NCBI GenBank assembly: GCA_000155715.1 | Contig: DS990598.1 | Coordinates: 115,456-179,455 of the forward strand | Reading direction: 5' to 3' | DNA from: a gamma proteobacterium HTCC5015 | Lineage (GTDB): Bacteria > Pseudomonadota > Gammaproteobacteria > HTCC5015 | Length of the DNA: 64,000 bases | In this document: positions 3,701-27,927 of the stretch, in pieces | Numbering within the stretch: the stretch's first letter is position 1 | How the letters are laid out: each line of letters begins with the position of its first letter | Translations under genes and position numbers: made by a program | Notes under the pieces: generated by a model | What the model saw: only the letters and a program-made list of their open reading frames with translations | What the model was told of the DNA's origin: nothing | The model's database searches: none

Positions 3701-5077
3701 ATGATGAGCAAAACCGTTAAAACGCTCTGTTCAGTCGCTTTATTAGCGAGTGTCAGTGCGACTGCTCACGCCGCTATCTCGGAAACTGAAGCGAGAAAGT
3801 TGGGTAAGCAGTTAACGCCGATGGGTGCCATTCAGGCGGGTAATGCCGATGGAACGATTCCAGCGTGGACGGGTGGCGTTTCGTCGTCGCCCAAGGGATT
3901 CCGCACGGGGCAACACCATCCGGACCCATTCGCCAACGATAAGCCGCTGTTTAAGATTACTGCGCAGAACTACAAGCAATACGCTGAAAAACTGACGGTC
4001 GGTCAGATTCAGATGTTTGAACAGTATCCCGACAGCTTTTACATGAATGTGTATCCCTCGCGTCGCAGCGCGGCATACCCAGAGCGTGTCTATGAGGCCA
4101 CTCGTCAAGCCGCGACGAGTGCTGAACTGATTTCAAACGGCAATGGCGTGACGAAGTCGGCTAATTGGAGCGGTATACCGTTTCCAATTCCTTCAAGCGG
4201 TGTGGAGGTGATTTGGAATCACGTCCTTCGCTACCGTGGCACGGGTTCGGCGCAGCGCCAAATTGTACAGGCTGTAGTCAACCGCGATGGCGATTACAGC
4301 TTGGTGAAATTTGAAGACGAGTTCTATCCCATCTATGCCGATCCAGGCATTACTGAGGAAGAGCTAGATAACGTTCTGATTTACTTCAAGCAGGAAGTAA
4401 TCTCTCCAGCTCGTTTGGCGGGTGGTATCTTGCTGGTTCACGAAACTTTGAACCAAGAGAAAGAGCACCGCAAAGCGTGGGTTTATAACCCAGGTCAGCG
4501 CCGTGTGCGTCGCGCACCGAATGTGGCTTTTGACAACCCACGTGAAGCCTCTGATGGTTTGGCAACATCCGATCAGTTCGACATGTACAACGGCAGTCCC
4601 GAGCGCTACAACATGGAGCTGAAGGGACGTGAAGAGAAATTCATTTCGTACAACAACTATCGTTTGCACAGCAACGAGGTTAAATACGCGGATATTCTCA
4701 AACCGTTGCACGTTAACCCCGAGCTAGTTCGTTGGGAACTGCACCGTGTTCACGTTGTGGATGCCACGCTGAAAGATGGTCAGCGTCACATCTACAAGCG
4801 CCGCACTTTCTATGTCGACGAAGATTCGTGGCAAGTGGCTGCAGTGGATATCTATGATAACCGCGACAAGCTCTGGCGCGTGTCCTTCGGCCACATGATT
4901 GTCTACTACGACATTCCCGCCGCTTGGACGACGGTAGAAGAGCACATCGATCTTCAATCGGGTCGCTACCTCGTTATTGGCATGAACAATGAAGAGCCTT
5001 CAACCTACACATTTGGCTTGGATCGTTCAGCCGGTGACTACCGCCCGAGCTCGCTACGTCGTGCGGGTCGTCGATAA
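3701..5077 (+). CDS. DUF1329 family periplasmic protein
   Basis: A 458-residue exported protein of the DUF1329 family (PF07044), the usual neighbour of DUF1302. It has a signal peptide (MMSKTVKTLCS... ending ATAHA), then conserved-looking blocks such as LTPMGAIQAGNADGTIPAWTGG near the mature N-terminus and DSWQVAAVDIYDNRDKLWRVS toward the C-terminus. ATG 3701 sits 9 bp after AAAGGGG; the in-frame ATGs at 3692 and 3704 are less well placed. The family is thought to have a LolA/LolB-like beta fold that could bind lipid, but no function is proven. It probably works with the flanking barrel and the downstream propeller and RND transporter (inference from the operon). Confidence 0.85.
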   Translation: MMSKTVKTLCSVALLASVSATAHAAISETEARKLGKQLTPMGAIQAGNADGTIPAWTGGVSSSPKGFRTGQHHPDPFANDKPLFKITAQNYKQYAEKLTVGQIQMFEQYPDSFYMNVYPSRRSAAYPERVYEATRQAATSAELISNGNGVTKSANWSGIPFPIPSSGVEVIWNHVLRYRGTGSAQRQIVQAVVNRDGDYSLVKFEDEFYPIYADPGITEEELDNVLIYFKQEVISPARLAGGILLVHETLNQEKEHRKAWVYNPGQRRVRRAPNVAFDNPREASDGLATSDQFDMYNGSPERYNMELKGREEKFISYNNYRLHSNEVKYADILKPLHVNPELVRWELHRVHVVDATLKDGQRHIYKRRTFYVDEDSWQVAAVDIYDNRDKLWRVSFGHMIVYYDIPAAWTTVEEHIDLQSGRYLVIGMNNEEPSTYTFGLDRSAGDYRPSSLRRAGRR

Positions 5078-5093
5078 AACGCAAAAGCACTCA

Positions 5094-5119
5094 AGCGGCC
5101 AGCACTCCAGCTGGCCGCT
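5094..5119 (+). repeat. Intercistronic hairpin in the envelope operon
   Basis: Perfect 9-bp inverted repeat AGCGGCCAG / CTGGCCGCT with an 8-nt loop. A third TGGCCGCTA copy lies about 30 bp downstream. There is no T-run, so it is not a standard terminator. It may be an mRNA-stabilising or processing hairpin that sets different levels of the DUF1329 and YCF48 products (inference). Confidence 0.6.
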
Positions 5120-5175
5120 ACTATATGGCCTAGTCGATTGGCCGCTATCTATTCTAAGAAATTTCAGGAACAGCC

Positions 5176-6192
5176 ATGAATAAGAAGCTCAGTGTGAAAG
5201 CACTTGTGATAGGGCTGGGGTTTTCTATGGCCCCAATTGTCGCTAGTGCAGCCGACGCATCAAACGCACCTGCCGTGGAACATGCCGTAAAGGCACCTCT
5301 TGCAGAGAAAAGCTTATTGTTGGACGTAGAGCGAGCAGGGGAGCGCCTTATCGCCGTCGGTGGTTACGGCAATATTGTGCTCTCTGATGACGAGGGCAGC
5401 ACTTGGCGTCAGGCTCAGTCAGTGCCCGCTCGAGTCACGCTAACCGCTGTGGATTTTGTCGATGAGAAACGCGGTTGGGCTGTAGGCCACGATGCCGTGA
5501 TATTGAAAACGATCGATGGTGGCGAGAACTGGACTCGGCAGTACTTTGCGCCGGAAGAAGAGCGCCCGCTACTTGAGGTGCAATTTCGAGAAAACGGTCG
5601 CATTGGCTATGCATTGGGTGCTTATAGTTTTCGTTTAGTGAGTAACGATGGCGGTAAAAGCTGGGTATCCAAAGATCTAGCCGATAATGCGGAAACGGAC
5701 TTGGGTATGCCCATTGAGTACCACCTTCACCAAGTCACTAAAGCCAGTAACGGCGTTTGGTATATGTCTGCCGAAGCGGGTATGGCGTATCGATCGTTGG
5801 ATAAGGGTGAAACATGGGATCGTATTCCCCCACCTTATGATGGCTCGTTCTTTGGCGCTTTACCCTTGTTGGGTGAAAGTGTGTTGATGTTTGGTCTTCA
5901 AGGCAGCATCTATCGAACGGATGACGGCGGGGATGATTGGACGGAGATTGCGAACGCTTCTACTGCAACTTTGAATTCCGGCTTGATTATGGACGATGGT
6001 ACGGTTGTTCTAGTTGGCAATGACGGCGCAGTGCTTGTGAGTAAGACGGGCGGCCAGAGCTTCCAAGCCAAAAGCTTGAATGATAGAAAGTCGGTAGCGG
6101 ATGCTATCGAAATTAGTGGTGGAAAATTGTTGTTGGTTGGCGAAATGGGTGCACGCACGATTACGCTGGGTCAACTTAAGGGGGATATCTAA
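5176..6192 (+). CDS. YCF48/BNR-repeat periplasmic beta-propeller protein
   Basis: A 338-residue protein with a signal peptide (hydrophobic 9-24, cleavage near ASAAD) and six Asp-box/BNR-like motifs: SDDEGSTW, TIDGGENW, SNDGGKSW, SLDKGETW, TDDGGDDW and the degenerate SKTGGQSF. This is the YCF48-type seven-bladed propeller fold; HCF136, a photosystem II assembly factor, is the best-known relative. In bacteria the family recurs between DUF1329 and MMPL genes, presumably as a periplasmic scaffold or assembly factor. Its stop codon overlaps the next start (TAATG), so it is translationally coupled to the transporter. Function beyond fold is inferred. Confidence 0.85.
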   Translation: MNKKLSVKALVIGLGFSMAPIVASAADASNAPAVEHAVKAPLAEKSLLLDVERAGERLIAVGGYGNIVLSDDEGSTWRQAQSVPARVTLTAVDFVDEKRGWAVGHDAVILKTIDGGENWTRQYFAPEEERPLLEVQFRENGRIGYALGAYSFRLVSNDGGKSWVSKDLADNAETDLGMPIEYHLHQVTKASNGVWYMSAEAGMAYRSLDKGETWDRIPPPYDGSFFGALPLLGESVLMFGLQGSIYRTDDGGDDWTEIANASTATLNSGLIMDDGTVVLVGNDGAVLVSKTGGQSFQAKSLNDRKSVADAIEISGGKLLLVGEMGARTITLGQLKGDI

Positions 6193-21077: not shown

Positions 21078-21360
21078 AATAATGTCTCCCAAGGTGTTCT
21101 AAGAGTTGTGTTACAAGCAATCGCTCAGAAAACACCGTGGGGCATTTGGTCGCAAATTTCAAACGTCCACCCATAGCCCACGCCAATCGTTTGGTGCAAC
21201 ACTCGCAAGCTCAGTGGGGGGATATGCCCGTGATTGGGGCTCGTTCCTCAATCTGGTGCGTCGATGCTGACTGTGGATGGAGGGTATGGTTGGTTACTGA
21301 TTCGCAAGGTTTTTTGATAAGTCATTGAAAATAAATAGAAATACAATTTCTTTTAGTGTT

Positions 21361-21377
21361 TTGGCACGGACTTTGTA
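21361..21377 (+). promoter_or_regulatory. Sigma54 (RpoN) promoter of the nitrate-uptake operon
   Basis: TTGGCACGGACTTTGTA matches the -24/-12 consensus TTGGCACG-N4-TTGCW at all fixed positions except C to T in the -12 element. Transcription would start near 21388, just before the leader hairpin. Sigma54 with NtrC is the usual control of nitrate-assimilation operons. TGGTGC half-sites upstream (about 21190 and 21255) might bind NtrC, but no clear dyad is seen. Confidence 0.75.
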
Positions 21378-21393
21378 TTGATTATTCCTGAAC

Positions 21394-21435
21394 GGCAGTG
21401 CAACGAGGCGCTACCCAATCCCTACAGCAAAGAGG
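21394..21435 (+). promoter_or_regulatory. ANTAR-type antitermination hairpins in the operon leader
   Basis: P1 (21394-21415) pairs AGTGC with GCGCT around the hexaloop AACGAG, which has A at position 1 and G at position 4, the ANTAR-target signature; two more G-C pairs extend the stem past one C/A mismatch. A weaker P2 (about 21420-21435) offers hexaloop ACAGCA, also A1/G4, with a bulged stem whose right arm enters the terminator stem. The NasT gene (22686) encodes an ANTAR protein expected to bind here. Structure is read from sequence; binding is inferred. Confidence 0.72.
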
Positions 21436-21463
21436 CTATGTCGATGGCGACATGGCCTTTTTT
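21433..21463 (+). terminator. Leader (attenuator) terminator of the nitrate-uptake operon
   Basis: AGGCTATGTCG / CGACATGGCCT forms an 11-bp stem (one G-T pair) with loop ATGG, then six T. It lies upstream of the first structural gene, so transcription must be antiterminated for expression. The left arm overlaps the right arm of P2, giving mutually exclusive structures. Confidence 0.85.
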
Positions 21464-21485
21464 GTTTTATTCAGGAGTCAATGCA

Positions 21486-22646
21486 ATGAATAAATTTGCA
21501 CTATTTATGGCCTCGTCTGCATTGCTGGCAGGAGTGCCTGCGGCCAATGCAGCGAGCGAGATTACACAGGCCTTAGAGGCCTCGGTACCCGTTTTAGATT
21601 TACGCGCGCGCTATGAAGTCAATGATGCCGATGATGCGGCCGATGCCGAAAAGGCGGAAGCTAGCACGCTGCGTACCCTCATAGGCCTTAAAAGCGGGCA
21701 GGCCTACGGCAGCTCGCTCTACTTGGAAATGGTCGATGTGTCCGCCCTGGATGCTGCGGATTATGGCCCGGGTACCGATGGCGTGGCCGATCCCGAGGGT
21801 AACGCTCTCAACCAAGCTTATGTGGAGCACCAGGTGGGCGATACCACACTGCGCTACGGACGCCAGCGCATTATTTACGACGGCGCTCGCTTTGTCGGCA
21901 ACGTTGGCTGGCGTCAAGACGAGCAAACCTACGATGGCGTGAGTCTAAAAGATACCACCTTTGATGGCGTGACTCTGCAGGCGGCGTATTTGAGTTCCAT
22001 TGATGGGATCAAGTTCAGCAAGGCCGACAGCGAGAGCATCCTCTTCAATGCCGCCTTTGACAGCGCGGGCCCTGGTCGTTTGGTGACATACGCCTACGCC
22101 CTCGATGATGGTAACGACAACACCAACGACACCCTAGGCGCGAGTTACAGCGGCAGTACGGCGGGCGAGACGGCCTTTCTCTACCACTTGGAGATGGCCT
22201 CACAGAGCGTGGAAAACGCAGCGGGAGGTGAGGCCGATGCGATTTATTCGCTGCTCGAGGCGGGCGTCAGGTTCCCGTCCGTCACGGCCAAGATGGGCCT
22301 AGAAGTGCTCGGCAGTGATGAGGGGCAATACGGCTTTCAGACGCCCCTAGCCACTAAACATAAATACAACGGTTGGGCCGACTCGTTTCTCGCCACGCCC
22401 GACGCCGGTCTGCACGATTTCTACGTATCTGTCGGTGGCAAAGTGGCCGACACCAAACTGATGGCTGTGTTTCACGATTTTACCGCCGACGAAGGCAGTG
22501 TGGATTACGGCTCAGAGCTGGATCTCTTGGCGCTCAAAAAATTGGGGCCGCATTACACAGTTGGCGCGAAATATGCTTCCTACAGCGCAGATACGGTTTC
22601 GGTCGATACCGACAAGTTCTGGCTCTGGGGTCAGGCCAGTTTTTAA
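21486..22646 (+). CDS. Alginate-export/porin-like outer-membrane beta-barrel
   Basis: A 386-residue exported protein: signal peptide MNKFALFMASSALLAGVPAA ending ANA, mature chain with barrel-like alternation, motif RYGRQRIIYDGARFVGNVGWRQDEQTYDG split near residues 120-150 that is typical of alginate-export-type (PF13372) porins, and C-terminal Phe (WGQASF). First gene after the NasT-controlled leader, so probably the outer-membrane pore for nitrate or nitrite supply (inference). ATG 21486 follows AGGAG; upstream in-frame starts lie in the terminator leader and are rejected. Confidence 0.85.
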   Translation: MNKFALFMASSALLAGVPAANAASEITQALEASVPVLDLRARYEVNDADDAADAEKAEASTLRTLIGLKSGQAYGSSLYLEMVDVSALDAADYGPGTDGVADPEGNALNQAYVEHQVGDTTLRYGRQRIIYDGARFVGNVGWRQDEQTYDGVSLKDTTFDGVTLQAAYLSSIDGIKFSKADSESILFNAAFDSAGPGRLVTYAYALDDGNDNTNDTLGASYSGSTAGETAFLYHLEMASQSVENAAGGEADAIYSLLEAGVRFPSVTAKMGLEVLGSDEGQYGFQTPLATKHKYNGWADSFLATPDAGLHDFYVSVGGKVADTKLMAVFHDFTADEGSVDYGSELDLLALKKLGPHYTVGAKYASYSADTVSVDTDKFWLWGQASF

Positions 22647-22685: not shown

Positions 22686-23282
22686 ATGACATGGCTCAGA
22701 ACAGCAGTATTTAACGAACGTCCCGAATTGGACGAGGCCATTGCGGAAGGTTTGAATGATTCCGATTGCCGCATGATGGCCCGCTATTCGGACCTCGATA
22801 ACATGGCCGAACGCCTAGCCAAGTTAGATGCAGATGTGGCCATTATGGTGCTAAAGGCGCTGGACAGTGCGCGCGTCGAGCAGCTCAAGTCGGTGATTGC
22901 CGACAATGAGTTACCAGTGGCTCTTTTTGCCGACGATGCCGATCCCGGCATCATCGTCAAACTGGTCAAGGCCGATGTGGGGGCCTATGTCTACGACGGT
23001 TTCAGCCCTGAGCGCTTCCGAGCCGTTGTCGCCGTGGCCGTAGCGCGCTATGTCGAGATGCGAAAATTGCGGCAGACGGCCGACGATGCTACTCGCAAGC
23101 TTGAAGAGCGCAAGGCGGTGGAGCGGGCCAAGGGCTTGTTAATGAGCCATCACAAAATGAGTGAAGACGACGCCTATAAAACCCTGCGCCAGCTCGCCAT
23201 GAATCGCGGACAGCGCATTGTCGATACCGCTCACAACACCATCGACATGCTGGAGATGGTCGGTAAGGGCGCGAGTCGTTAG
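22686..23282 (+). CDS. nasT: NasT-type ANTAR response regulator (antiterminator)
   Basis: A 198-residue regulator. The N-terminal receiver-like domain (about 1-125) is atypical in its phosphorylation pocket. The C-terminal ANTAR domain has the expected pattern [19 protein letters not shown] followed by [18 protein letters not shown]. NasT binds A1/G4 hexaloop hairpins and prevents leader termination in nitrate-assimilation operons, normally held inactive by NasS. The matching leader is 1.2 kb upstream in the same operon, implying autoregulation. No NasS-like cytoplasmic partner gene is in the window. Confidence 0.9.
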
Positions 23283-23413
23283 CCAGTGAAGATTCGACAC
23301 ACACCAAAGACAGCGGTGAGCCAACGATGGCACATCATCAACGACGCAGTTGCTACCCCAAACCATCAAACCCGGGCGATCCGTACCACGGCGCCTACAG
23401 GAGGGTACATACC

Positions 23414-24772
23414 ATGCAACTCAAAATGAAAAATGCAGTAAAAACTACCGTCGTCAGCGCGCTGCTGGTGGCGAGCGGCTTCGCCCACGCCCTGACCGAG
23501 GGCGTGGAAAAACGCGATCTCAAATTCGGTTTTATCAAGCTTACGGATATGGCGCCTCTGGCCATTGCCTACGAGAAGGGCTACTTCATGGACGAGGGTC
23601 TATTCGTCAGCCTAGAGGCACAGGCCAATTGGAAAGTGTTGCTCGATCGAGTGATCGATGGCGATCTGGACGGTGCTCACATGCTGGCGGGACAGCCACT
23701 GGGGGCGACGATTGGCTTTGGTACAAAGGCTGACATTATTACCGCATTCAGTATGGATTTGAACGGCAACGGCATTACGGTTTCCAACGATGTGTGGGAA
23801 CAGATGAAGCCCCATATTCCCCACGAGGACGGCAAGCCGATTCACCCCATCAGCGCTTCGGCTCTGAAACCGGTGGTAGAGTCCTATCGTGATGAGGGCG
23901 AGGCCTTCAAGATGGGGATGGTCTTCCCAGTGTCGACCCACAACTACGAGTTGCGCTATTGGTTGGCGGCCGGCGGCATCCACCCCGGTTACTACGCACC
24001 CCACAAGGGCGACACCTCCGGCCAGATCGACGCCGAGGCGCTGCTCTCGGTCACCCCGCCACCGCAAATGCCATCGACCATGGAAGCCGGCACGATCCAC
24101 GGCTACTGCGTGGGTGAGCCCTGGAACCAGCAGGCGGTGTTTATGGGCATTGGGGTGCCGGTGATTACCGATTACGAAATCTGGAAAAACAACCCGGAAA
24201 AGGTGTTTGGCGTTTCCAAAGGCTGGGCCGAGGAGTACCCCAATACGCACAAGGCGGTGGTCAAAGCCTTGATTCGCGCGGCCAAGTGGCTGGATGCCGA
24301 CAATAATGCCAATCGACCCGAGGCTGTCGAGATCCTCTCGCGTCCGGAGTATGTGGGTGCAGACTACGACGTGATCGCCAACTCCATGACGGGTACTTTC
24401 GAGTACGAGAAGGGCGATAAGCGCCCAGTGCCCGACTTCAATGTGTTTTTTCGCTACCACGCGACTTACCCCTACTACTCGGACGCCATCTGGTATCTGA
24501 CGCAAATGCGTCGTTGGGGCCAGATCCCCGAACACAAGCCGAATGACTGGTACATGAAAATGGCCAAGTCGGTTTACCGCCCAGACATCTACCGCGAGGC
24601 CGCCGAGGAGCTGATTGAGGAGGGTCACCTGAAACCGTCCGAATTACCGGAGACCGAGGGTTTCCGTCCTCCGCAAACCGAATTCATGGACGGCATTACC
24701 TACGACGGCCGCAAGCCCAACGACTACCTCGAATCGCTGAAAATCGGCCTCAAGGTCGGTGACAAGCTGTAG
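23414..24772 (+). CDS. Nitrate ABC transporter substrate-binding protein (NrtA-type)
   Basis: A 452-residue periplasmic binding protein for nitrate/nitrite uptake. The signal peptide ([14 protein letters not shown]) is followed by the NrtA/CmpA hallmark [20 protein letters not shown]. Later blocks include [25 protein letters not shown] and [12 protein letters not shown], matching ligand-pocket segments of the family. ATG 23414 has AGGAGGG upstream. Presence of a signal peptide argues for NrtA and against the cytoplasmic sensor NasS. The gene is noticeably GC-richer than the flanking core genome. Confidence 0.92.
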
Positions 24773-24790: not shown

Positions 24791-25813
24791 ATGGTGACCA
24801 AAGTAGCCAACAAACTGGAGATGACACCGGCGGCCTTTCTGGCACCGTTGCTGAGACTGATGGCTTGGGAGAATCCCAAACAGCAACTGTCGTCGATGTT
24901 TAACAGCGCTGGCCTGCCACTTATGGCCTTCCTGCTTTTTCTGGGCCTGTGGTCGGCGGCCGCATCCCGCATTGAAACGAGTCTGGGCAATGTGCCCGGA
25001 CCCGTTCAGGTGTGGGAGGAAGCGGGCAATCTCTGGAAGGAGCACCGGCGCGGTCGGGAGAAGGCCGAGGTGTTCTACCAAAGGCAGCGCGAGCTGAATG
25101 AACGCATACTGGCCAGTGACCCCGATGCCGAGGTTCGCATTCGCGACTACACCGGCCAGCCGACGTTTGTCGATCAGATTTTTACCAGCCTCTATACGGT
25201 ATTCACTGGCTTTTTGCTGGCGGCGTTGATCTCCATTCCGCTGGGGATACTCTGCGGCTTGAGTGAAAAGGTGAATTCGGCTCTGAACCCGTTGATACAG
25301 GTGTTCAAACCCGTATCGCCACTCGCCTGGCTGCCGATTGTGACCATGGTGGTCAGTGCGGTTTACGTCAGCGACGACCCCATGCTGGAGAAGTCCTTTC
25401 TCACCTCGGCGATTACGGTCACGCTCTGTTCCCTTTGGCCGGCGCTGATCAATACCACGGTGGGCGTTTCCTCGATTTCAGAGGATTTGATCAACGTCAG
25501 CCGCGTGCTGCGCCTGAAGTGGTACACCAAGATCTACAAGGTCGTACTGCCCGCCGCCATGCCCATGATGTTTACCGGATTGCGTCTGTCTCTGGGTGTG
25601 GGCTGGATGGTGCTGATCGCCGCCGAGATGCTGGCCCAGAACCCGGGTCTGGGCAAGTTTGTCTGGGACGAGTTCCAGAACGGCAGCTCCAGTTCCCTAG
25701 GTCGAATTATGGTCGCGGTCTTTACCATCGGTTTTATCGGTTTTCTGCTGGATCGCGTCATGTTGATCCTACAGCGCTTCTTTTCATACGACGACGGGGC
25801 CGCCATCCGCTGA
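24791..25813 (+). CDS. Nitrate ABC transporter permease (NrtB-type)
   Basis: A 340-residue inner-membrane permease of the NrtB/SsuC family. One helix near residues 40-58, a cytoplasmic or periplasmic charged insert (about 75-125), then five helices. The EAA-type loop KIYKVVLPAAMPMMFTGLRL (about 246-265) contacts the ATPase. Residues GVGWMVLIAAEMLA fit the family. Lies 18 bp after nrtA. Confidence 0.93.
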   Translation: MVTKVANKLEMTPAAFLAPLLRLMAWENPKQQLSSMFNSAGLPLMAFLLFLGLWSAAASRIETSLGNVPGPVQVWEEAGNLWKEHRRGREKAEVFYQRQRELNERILASDPDAEVRIRDYTGQPTFVDQIFTSLYTVFTGFLLAALISIPLGILCGLSEKVNSALNPLIQVFKPVSPLAWLPIVTMVVSAVYVSDDPMLEKSFLTSAITVTLCSLWPALINTTVGVSSISEDLINVSRVLRLKWYTKIYKVVLPAAMPMMFTGLRLSLGVGWMVLIAAEMLAQNPGLGKFVWDEFQNGSSSSLGRIMVAVFTIGFIGFLLDRVMLILQRFFSYDDGAAIR

Positions 25814-25838: not shown

Positions 25839-26636
25839 ATGGGTATGTCCTATCTCAATATCGAACAGGTGGCCATCGATTTTCCCACCAAGTCTGGTCC
25901 CTTTCGCGCCCTCGACGGGGTGCAGCTGCGCATCGACCAAGGCGAGTTTGTCTCGTTGATCGGTCACTCGGGTTGTGGCAAGTCGACGGTTCTCAACATT
26001 GTGGCCGGTCTCTACCAGGCCACTGACGGAGGCGTGGTGCTCGACGGCAAGGAAGTGAACGACCCCGGCCCGGATCGGGCCGTGGTGTTCCAGAACCACT
26101 CGCTGCTGCCCTGGCTCACCGTCTACGGCAATGTGCAGCTGGCGGTGGATCAGGTGTTTGCCAAAACCATGAACAAGGCCGAGCGGCACGACTGGATCAT
26201 ACAAAATTTGGAGCTCGTGCATATGGCCCACGCCGCCGACAAGCGGCCCGCTCAAATTTCCGGCGGCATGAAACAGCGCGTGGGCATTGCTCGCGCTCTG
26301 GCCATGCGGCCCAAGGTGTTGTTGATGGACGAGCCCTTTGGTGCCCTGGATTCCCTGACCCGCAGCCACCTTCAGGACGCGCTTATGGAGATTCAGGCCG
26401 AGCTGCAAAATACCGTGATTATGATCACCCACGATGTCGACGAGGCGGTGCTGCTCTCGGACCGTATCGTGATGATGACTAATGGCCCCGCGGCCAAAGT
26501 GGGCGAGATTCTCGAGGTGGACTTGCCCCGGCCCCGGGAGCGCCTAGCGCTGGCCCGGGATGAGCGCTACAACGAATACCGCTCGGAAGTGCTGCGCTTC
26601 TTGCACGAGCGCCACGACCGCAGTCAGGTCGCTTAG
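25839..26636 (+). CDS. Nitrate ABC transporter ATP-binding protein (NrtD-type)
   Basis: A 265-residue ATPase: Walker [10 protein letters not shown] (about 43-51), Q-loop [17 protein letters not shown], signature [15 protein letters not shown], Walker [13 protein letters not shown] and the switch His in [13 protein letters not shown]. It lacks the NrtA-like C-terminal extension of NrtC. It energises the NrtB permease. Shares the high-GC codon use of its neighbours. Confidence 0.94.
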
Positions 26637-26649
26637 GAGGTCGGAAGCC

Positions 26650-27927
26650 ATGGCACGCAAAAAACTGGTGATGGTGGGCAACGGCATGGCCGGCGTGCGG
26701 GCGCTGGAGGAACTCCTGCGACTGGCGCCTGACCGCTACGACATTACCGTGTTTGGTGCCGAGCCCTGCGGCCACTACAACCGCATCATGCTCTCGCCGG
26801 TACTGGCCAACGAGATGGACATCGACGAGATTTTTACCCACCACCCGCGCTGGTACGAAGAGCAGGGCATTACCCTCTACACCAGTAAGGTGGTCACGAA
26901 AATCGACCGCCAGCGCCAGTGTGTGATCGCCGATGACGGCACCGAGGCGCACTACGACCGGTTACTGCTGGCACTGGGTTCGCTGCCACGGGTGCTGCCG
27001 ATTTCCGGCAATACGCTCGACGGTGTGACCACCTATCGCGAAGTGCGCGATGTGCACCACATTATGAACGCGGCGAGAAAGCACCGGCGGGCGGTGGTTA
27101 TCGGTGGTGGCCTGTTGGGTCTGGAGGCGGCCTATGGTCTCAGCCGCCACGGCATGGAGGTGACCGTGGTGCACCTTAACGAGTGCGTGCTGGATCGGCA
27201 GCTCGATGGAAAGGCCTCTCGCCTTTTGCAGCAGTATCTGAAACATCAGGGGATAGAGTTTTTATTGTCTAGACAGGTGGCGGCACTGGAAGGACGGGAT
27301 CGGGTCGAGTCGGTACGCTTTGACAGTGGCGAGCAAATCTCTGCGGATTTAGTGGTCATGGCAGCGGGTATTCACCCGCGTATTGCGCTGGCGAAAGAGG
27401 CGGGTTTGCACTGTAAGCAAGGTATCGTTGTCGATGATTGTCTACAAACTTTTGACCCCAAAATTTATGCGGTTGGCGAGTGTGTGCAGCATCGTGGCCA
27501 AGTGTATGGATTGGTTGCGCCTCTGTATGAGCAAGCGAGAGTGTGTGCCAACCATTTGGCTGAGATTGGCATCTCGCGCTACGAGGGCAGTGTGCTATCC
27601 ACCAGTTTGAAAGTGACTGGAATCAGTTTGTTTTCTGCAGGGGACTTTAAAGGCGATGAGAGTACTCGTGAGATTGTCTTCTTCGATGTGGCTGATAGCG
27701 TCTATAAAAAGCTGGTGGTCAAAGACGACCGCTTAATAGGAGCGCTTTTGTATGGCGAAACAAACGATAGTCGCTGGTATTTGGACTTGATACGCTCCAG
27801 TCGATCGATTGCGGCGATTCGAGAAAATATGGTGTTTGGCAGAGTTTTTTGTGAATCGGATGAGGTGTCTTTCCAAAACATGGATACGGACCCAAACCAC
27901 GACAGCGCCCAAACCTCTTGGCAGTAA
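26650..27927 (+). CDS. NirB-like FAD/NAD(P)H oxidoreductase, lacking siroheme domains (possibly truncated)
   Basis: A 425-residue flavoprotein equal to the N-terminal half of assimilatory nitrite reductase NirB (about 850 residues): FAD motif VMVGNGMAGVRALEEL, NAD(P)-binding VVIGGGLLGLEAAYGL (about 155), second FAD motif AVGECVQHRGQVYGL, then an NADH-rubredoxin-reductase-like C-terminal domain. The ferredoxin-like, siroheme and 4Fe-4S domains are absent, and the chain ends in an unrelated polar tail. GC content falls from about 61% (27001-27240) to about 50% (27241-27720) by hand count, hinting at recombination. It could be an electron-transfer partner for a reductase elsewhere, or a remnant. 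Confidence 0.8.
   Translation: MARKKLVMVGNGMAGVRALEELLRLAPDRYDITVFGAEPCGHYNRIMLSPVLANEMDIDEIFTHHPRWYEEQGITLYTSKVVTKIDRQRQCVIADDGTEAHYDRLLLALGSLPRVLPISGNTLDGVTTYREVRDVHHIMNAARKHRRAVVIGGGLLGLEAAYGLSRHGMEVTVVHLNECVLDRQLDGKASRLLQQYLKHQGIEFLLSRQVAALEGRDRVESVRFDSGEQISADLVVMAAGIHPRIALAKEAGLHCKQGIVVDDCLQTFDPKIYAVGECVQHRGQVYGLVAPLYEQARVCANHLAEIGISRYEGSVLSTSLKVTGISLFSAGDFKGDESTREIVFFDVADSVYKKLVVKDDRLIGALLYGETNDSRWYLDLIRSSRSIAAIRENMVFGRVFCESDEVSFQNMDTDPNHDSAQTSWQ

Follow-up and report, generated by a model that had tools for sequence, protein, structure and literature searches.

The window analyzed here is a stretch of 64,000 nucleotides from the genome of the gammaproteobacterium HTCC5015. Its forward strand carries a nitrate-uptake operon preceded by a short leader. 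As an earlier note on this DNA had described, the leader lies ahead of a porin gene and the gene for an ANTAR protein is next in line.

21361–21376, + strand: sigma54-type −24/−12 promoter TTGGCACGGACTTTGT, read directly, with GG and GT ten bases apart
21394–21415, + strand: P1 hairpin GGCAGTGC-AACGAG-GCGCTACC, hexaloop with A1 and G4 and a C:G closing pair, from direct reading and folding
21426–21437, + strand: P2 hairpin core AGC-AAAGAG-GCT, hexaloop with A1 and G4 and a C:G closing pair, from direct reading and folding
21434–21463, + strand: intrinsic terminator, arms GGCTATGTCG (21434–21443) and CGACATGGCC (21448–21457) around an ATGG loop, then TTTTTT
21473–21477, + strand: ribosome-binding site AGGAG of the porin gene, by eye
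21486–22646, + strand: outer-membrane porin gene (Pfam Alginate_exp, E 4.9e-9)
22686–23282, + strand: nasT-like gene, degenerate receiver plus ANTAR domain (ANTAR E 3.6e-18)
23414–24772, + strand: nrtA-like gene (NMT1_2) for an exported nitrate-binding protein (solved NrtA 2g29, E 6.3e-55; export signal by eye)
24791–25813, + strand: nrtB-like permease gene (TIGR01183, 166.9 bits, under the cut-off of 209.05)
25839–26636, + strand: nrtC/D-like ATPase gene (TIGR01184, 360.2 bits, over the cut-off)
26647–27927, + strand: FAD reductase gene similar to the N-terminal portion of NirB (TIGR02374 positions 1–390 of 794, under the cut-off)

The leader contains the parts of an ANTAR-type attenuator. 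The A1/G4 hexaloop hairpin of the earlier note is P1, whose AACGAG loop occurs in the right order on the + strand. The AAAGAG hairpin P2 is, as the note had said, the weaker of the two because it has just three contiguous pairs, or five with one mismatch over 21423–21440. Both loops are closed by C:G pairs (C21401–G21408 in P1 and C21428–G21435 in P2), and a C:G loop-closing pair was selected by NasR in SELEX (PMC7496416). The linker between the hairpins measures 10 nt (21416–21425) when the outer P1 pairs are included and 13 nt when only the inner five are counted. Linkers in eut leaders are about 5 to 12 nt long, with 3 or 14 nt causing impairment (PMC3369931), and the 10-nt linker is within this range. 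P2 agrees with the eut consensus AGCAANGRRGCUY (PMC3369931) at 12 of 13 letters; the 13-mer is not significant alone, as the window contains 4 copies with at most one mismatch against 2.45 expected. The 3′ arm of P2 falls within the 5′ arm of the terminator. The terminator itself is present, but its stem has ten contiguous pairs rather than the 11 previously claimed; the predicted fold has 15, gained by pairing the P2 loop with the U run.

Folding predictions were made for RNAs of increasing length. RNA from 21388 to 21440 was predicted to fold into exactly P1 and P2, and RNA extending to 21457 or 21464 into P1 and the terminator. With the 3′ end at 21443 or 21447, a long-range structure had the lowest energy, and it was neither P1 with P2 nor the terminator. 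Evaluated alone, the terminator has an energy of −16.7 kcal/mol vs. −1.8 kcal/mol for P2. By predicted fold energy, P2 and the terminator are mutually exclusive, an arrangement already known from EutV, NasR, and NasT (PMC3369931, PMC7496416). The region 21385–21470 was also more stable than expected by chance (z = −3.89), with none of 200 shuffles as stable. A structural scan for a dual A1/G4 hexaloop with an overlapping terminator scored the leader at 30.6 and listed no other place at 20 or above on either strand of the 64-kb window. Shuffling the window 60 times with dinucleotide content preserved gave two matches of at least 20 (the highest at 21.7) and none of 25 or more. The combination and placement of the parts are significant; single parts alone are not.

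Searches with sequence and covariance models gave less clear-cut results. An Rfam search of the window returned no family at the gathering threshold. A covariance model (R1) was built from seeds chosen by the structural scan, the window included, and a second (R2) from the same seeds minus the window row. R1 gave the window leader 33.0 bits, a circular value as the window is among the seeds. The covariance search for the ANTAR motif that had been suggested beforehand gave a borderline result: with default filters, R2 did not report the leader in either the window or the genome, where 150 of 867 candidates were scored, but with filters off it placed the leader at the top of 20 kb with a marginal 12.6 bits (E 0.076), and an unrelated place scored 12.2 bits. 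When R2 was used with default filters to look for a second target in the organism's own genome, the best E was 0.147 and none was convincing among the 150 of 867 candidates that were scored. In the seed alignment (A2), 91.5% of cells are paired and 52 cells are changed on both sides; these counts are circular and offer no proof, since pairing was a criterion in choosing the seeds. Of 18 seeds, 13 have a P2 loop ending in GC and 12 a P1 loop ending in GC; both window loops end in AG. A tight double-hexaloop pattern occurred at two places in the genome, the window leader and C17:37597 (minus strand), a count that means little because a backwards control pattern also matched once. A weak two-hexaloop resemblance was seen at 23313–23351, in the nasT–nrtA gap, a position at which a second leader occurs in some relatives. 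It was considered as a decayed second leader (R2, 8.4 bits) and rejected, its fold being no better than shuffles (z −0.02).

The setting was then compared across related organisms. Within the organism's own order, represented by four genomes (its own included), one other genome carries the porin; in two others the ANTAR proteins lie, by eye, beside histidine-kinase-like or ABC-binding-like proteins and not beside nitrate genes. A NasT query against genome contigs confirmed no relative. The comparison was widened to the class because these close relatives are uninformative for a nitrate-linked nasT. In the class sample of 369 genomes, porin homologues were found in 83 (E ≤0.001) and NasT-profile matches in 91 (E ≤1e-25). 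Among 137 loci, 83 held 86 porin places; removal of one with <250 bases upstream and of 14 duplicates left 71. Seventeen of these have nasT just downstream of the porin gene, 6 have it just upstream, and 48 have neither. A leader combining a hexaloop and a terminator precedes the porin gene in 7/17 porin-then-nasT places, 5/6 nasT-then-porin places, and 2/48 of the remainder. Both exceptions in the last class look like ANTAR leaders: in L128, nasT and nasS lie further upstream, and L011 belongs to a genome (G130) with NasT on another contig. R1 added one leader among the 17 (L078) and one among the 6 (L042, which is the L019 site). The earlier view that a porin is a less usual first target was not supported, given the frequency of leaders before porins at these nasT-linked loci. 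When R1 was applied to 80 named nrtA loci, L121 and L132 among them being contigs that also gave seeds, 36 matches (E ≤0.1) were obtained in 30 of the 80, all on the nrtA strand.

Gene order differs among these systems. The nasT gene lies behind the leader in the window, G121, and G031, so read-through should make more NasT. In several relatives the leader follows nasT, and there NasT is made before the switch. The leaders also differ at position 6 of the P2 loop, which is A or G in all seven porin-first leaders and C in all five nasT-first leaders. By this split, noticed after the fact, the AAAGAG loop of the window fits the porin-first subgroup; the split may come from pairing of the loop with the terminator U run.

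The sigma54-type promoter claimed ahead of the porin gene is present. TTGGCACGGACTTTGT differs from TGGCACNNNNNTTGCW by one mismatch and has the −24 GG and −12 GC/GT with ten bases between them that characterize sigma54 promoters; from the promoter spacing, transcription is predicted to start near 21388. The pattern alone is not significant, as 39 sites with at most two mismatches were seen in the window against 40.8 expected. Upstream of the porin gene, a sigma54-type site occurs in 11/17 porin-then-nasT places, 0/6 nasT-then-porin places, and 2/48 places lacking a nearby nasT, counts that reflect a pattern widened after the sequences had been inspected; an earlier, narrower pattern gave 7/17, 2/6, and 7/48 in the same three classes. 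Shuffled controls for the 17 porin-then-nasT loci averaged 0.13 sites, with a maximum of 1. In Methylophaga, a Porticoccaceae metagenome-assembled genome (MAG), and Halioglobus, as in the window, porin-first operons often open with a sigma54-type site followed by an attenuator.

No NtrC palindrome with three or fewer mismatches to the consensus was found near the promoter; the sole NtrC-like trace, noted by eye, was a TGGTGCA half-site at 21192–21198. The promoter at 21361–21376 was therefore not assigned to the NtrC-activated class. The proposal of control by nitrogen status thus keeps its recurring sigma54-type site but lacks the palindrome near the promoter, and such control, if it operates, rests on the promoter. 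Sigma54-type sites were also found in a second nitrate cluster of the genome (L036), at 2627 (before a moaD-like gene), 5709 (before an MFS transporter gene), and 9149 (before a nirB-like gene); a single promoter type seems common to the nitrate genes of the organism. By analogy, sites before the porin, MFS, and nirB-like genes would fit general nitrogen control of the kind described for Klebsiella (PMC5424462). In Burkholderia, nasT expression is reported to fall in an ntrC mutant (PMC5491218), and in one survey, genes of the ANTAR group COG3707 accounted for 66 predicted sigma54 promoters, most of them in beta- and gammaproteobacteria (PMC12316311). In this second cluster (L036, L006), neither the structural scan nor R1 listed an attenuator. 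The contig that carries the operon has another NasT-like gene there (L006 7021–7614; C30, ~432 kb), with 35% identity to the first, in a nirBD-nasA cluster between HemD-like and moaA-like genes; no NasS, attenuator, or partner was found beside it.

The leader is, very probably, an ANTAR-type transcription attenuator of the nitrate-uptake operon, with the NasT-type protein as its presumed antiterminator. The NasT-like protein, a receiver plus an ANTAR domain, matches 1s8n over residues 19–182. In the mechanism proposed, sigma54 RNA polymerase would start near 21388, with P1 and then P2 forming during transcription. In the absence of active NasT, P2 would be displaced by the downstream arm, which would form the terminator and leave a short RNA of ~75 nt. 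A NasT-type protein bound to both hexaloops would instead preserve P2 and block the terminator, allowing transcription of porin-nasT-nrtABC-reductase. Read-through would in turn raise the amount of NasT, giving positive feedback.

What activates NasT is less readily explained. NasT normally works with NasS, a cytoplasmic relative of NrtA that lacks a signal sequence (PMC3795266). The genome encodes one PF13379 protein, the NrtA of this operon, and its N-terminus is by eye a signal peptide. NasS was not found in the genome, which is 98.86% complete in 30 contigs, so that a nasS gene could lie in a gap; with no cytoplasmic NasS found, the system was not assigned to the NasS-NasT class. No NIT domain was found in the genome at E ≤0.1, nor any homologue of the proteins that adjoin nasT in G347 and G162. 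The proposed control by nitrate through NasT is therefore doubtful, because the genome shows a single, exported protein of the NasS/NrtA family, no NasS, and no NIT-domain protein.

Relatives fill this position in different ways. In G093, G121, G135, G247, L163, L170, and L174, a second NMT1_2-like protein with no signal peptide by eye is encoded between nasT and nrtA. In L083, L141, L150, and L171, a NIT-like protein is encoded before nasT. The L083 example (4634–5497), between porin and nasT, is a free-standing NIT-like protein with a Pfam E of 0.0041, under the cut-off, and the other three were called by their 39–44% identity to it. These Methylophaga-type operons, ordered porin, NIT-like gene, nasT, look as if NasR had been split in two. 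A protein that weakly matches YkuI_C is present in G347; at L039 (6524–7477), such a protein, 317 aa long, occupies the place of NasS between nasT and nrtA, and G139 has a homologue of the YkuI_C-like protein on a contig other than that of its nasT. Among the 17 porin-then-nasT loci, no sensor gene lies between the porin, nasT, and nrt genes in the window, L008/L040, L010/L084, L077, or L078; the L078 sequence ends just after its nrtA match begins, and two other places in that genome match PF13379 more weakly. In a set of 27 genomes, nine have a single PF13379 protein, and an export signal was seen by eye in 8/8 inspected (G055 was left out). A speculative reading of these arrangements, of low probability, is that the porin-nasT-nrtABC attenuator operon is a chassis with a swapped sensor (NasS, a free-standing NIT-like protein, a YkuI_C-like protein, or, as here, none recognizable), and that NasT here may read an undescribed input, perhaps the transporter, together with positive feedback through its own attenuator.

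Another possibility, which we hold with similarly low confidence, is that the leader is an ANTAR attenuator but that NasT, with no NasS, is always active and does not respond to nitrate, so that sigma54 alone would set the response and the attenuator would match expression to the amount of NasT. The single, exported PF13379 protein in a nearly complete genome, the lack of a NIT-domain protein, and the lack of homologues of the G347 and G162 neighbors are all consistent with it. The receiver also lacks its phosphoacceptor Asp, having V opposite the D of 1s8n, and a Paracoccus nasS mutant is described as constitutive (PMC3795266). A working attenuator would, however, then have little to sense, and leaders persist in some relatives, such as G005 and L077, whose only PF13379 protein is exported, which suggests that some input exists. 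In a further reading, another protein, most simply the operon NrtA before export, would replace NasS and keep NasT inactive as long as no nitrate is bound. NasS is a relative of NrtA (PMC3795266), and nrtA directly follows nasT here, whereas nasS and then nrtA do so in G093, G121, G135, and G247; still, the signal peptide should take NrtA out of the cytoplasm, and the idea is a guess from gene order that we consider unlikely.

It could also be argued that no regulatory RNA is present, and that 21434–21463 is a plain intrinsic terminator of upstream transcription or of a short RNA, with the hexaloops arising by chance. The weakness of P2 and the bare detection of the leader by the leave-one-out model R2 are compatible with this reading. 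Against it stand the shuffles, none of which reached a score of 25, the corresponding leaders that other lineages have at this position, and the ANTAR gene within the operon, which together make it very improbable. An attenuator acted on by the NasT-type protein remains the best explanation.

ANTAR-type attenuators are a known kind of regulator, and nitrogen control joined to nitrate antitermination is the plan of Klebsiella nasF. The nasF/NasR system of Klebsiella oxytoca shares with this locus Ntr control with nitrate antitermination (PMC5424462) and a two-hairpin A1/G4 motif followed by a terminator (PMC7496416). It differs in that NasR has its own NIT sensor domain, whereas the protein here combines a receiver with an ANTAR domain and no sensor was found, and in that the first gene here is a porin gene. 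The NasS-NasT systems with a nasA leader in Paracoccus and Azotobacter resemble it in their NasT-kind receiver-ANTAR protein, nitrate gene targets, and leader RNA (PMC3795266, PMC5424462), but no NasS was found here, and nasT lies downstream of the attenuator, whereas nasTS is described as preceding it in Paracoccus. Enterococcus eut leaders likewise have dual A1/G4 hexaloops and a P2 that overlaps the terminator (PMC3369931); EutV, however, is described as phosphorylated by EutW, and the receiver here has no Asp. The closest counterparts are in Methylophaga (L083/L121, L171), the Porticoccaceae MAG (L170), and Halioglobus (L163), which have a sigma54-type site, a hexaloop overlapping a terminator, and porin, then nasT and nrtA. 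Unlike the window, these operons encode a NIT-like or NasS-like protein beside nasT. L163 has one hexaloop and no clear P1, and the first hairpin of L170 is not a clean hexaloop. Among the literature matches listed, no description of an ANTAR leader before a porin gene was found; the supplementary target table of PMC3369931, which lay outside that search, could list porins.

With these results, an outer-membrane porin joins the genes subject to ANTAR-type attenuation, in an arrangement that recurs in several gammaproteobacterial lineages. The point of interest is the apparently missing sensor. If it is truly missing, this operon would allow a test of how an ANTAR regulator is switched without NasS or phosphorylation, and would show whether nitrate can be signaled to an RNA-binding protein by a transport protein.
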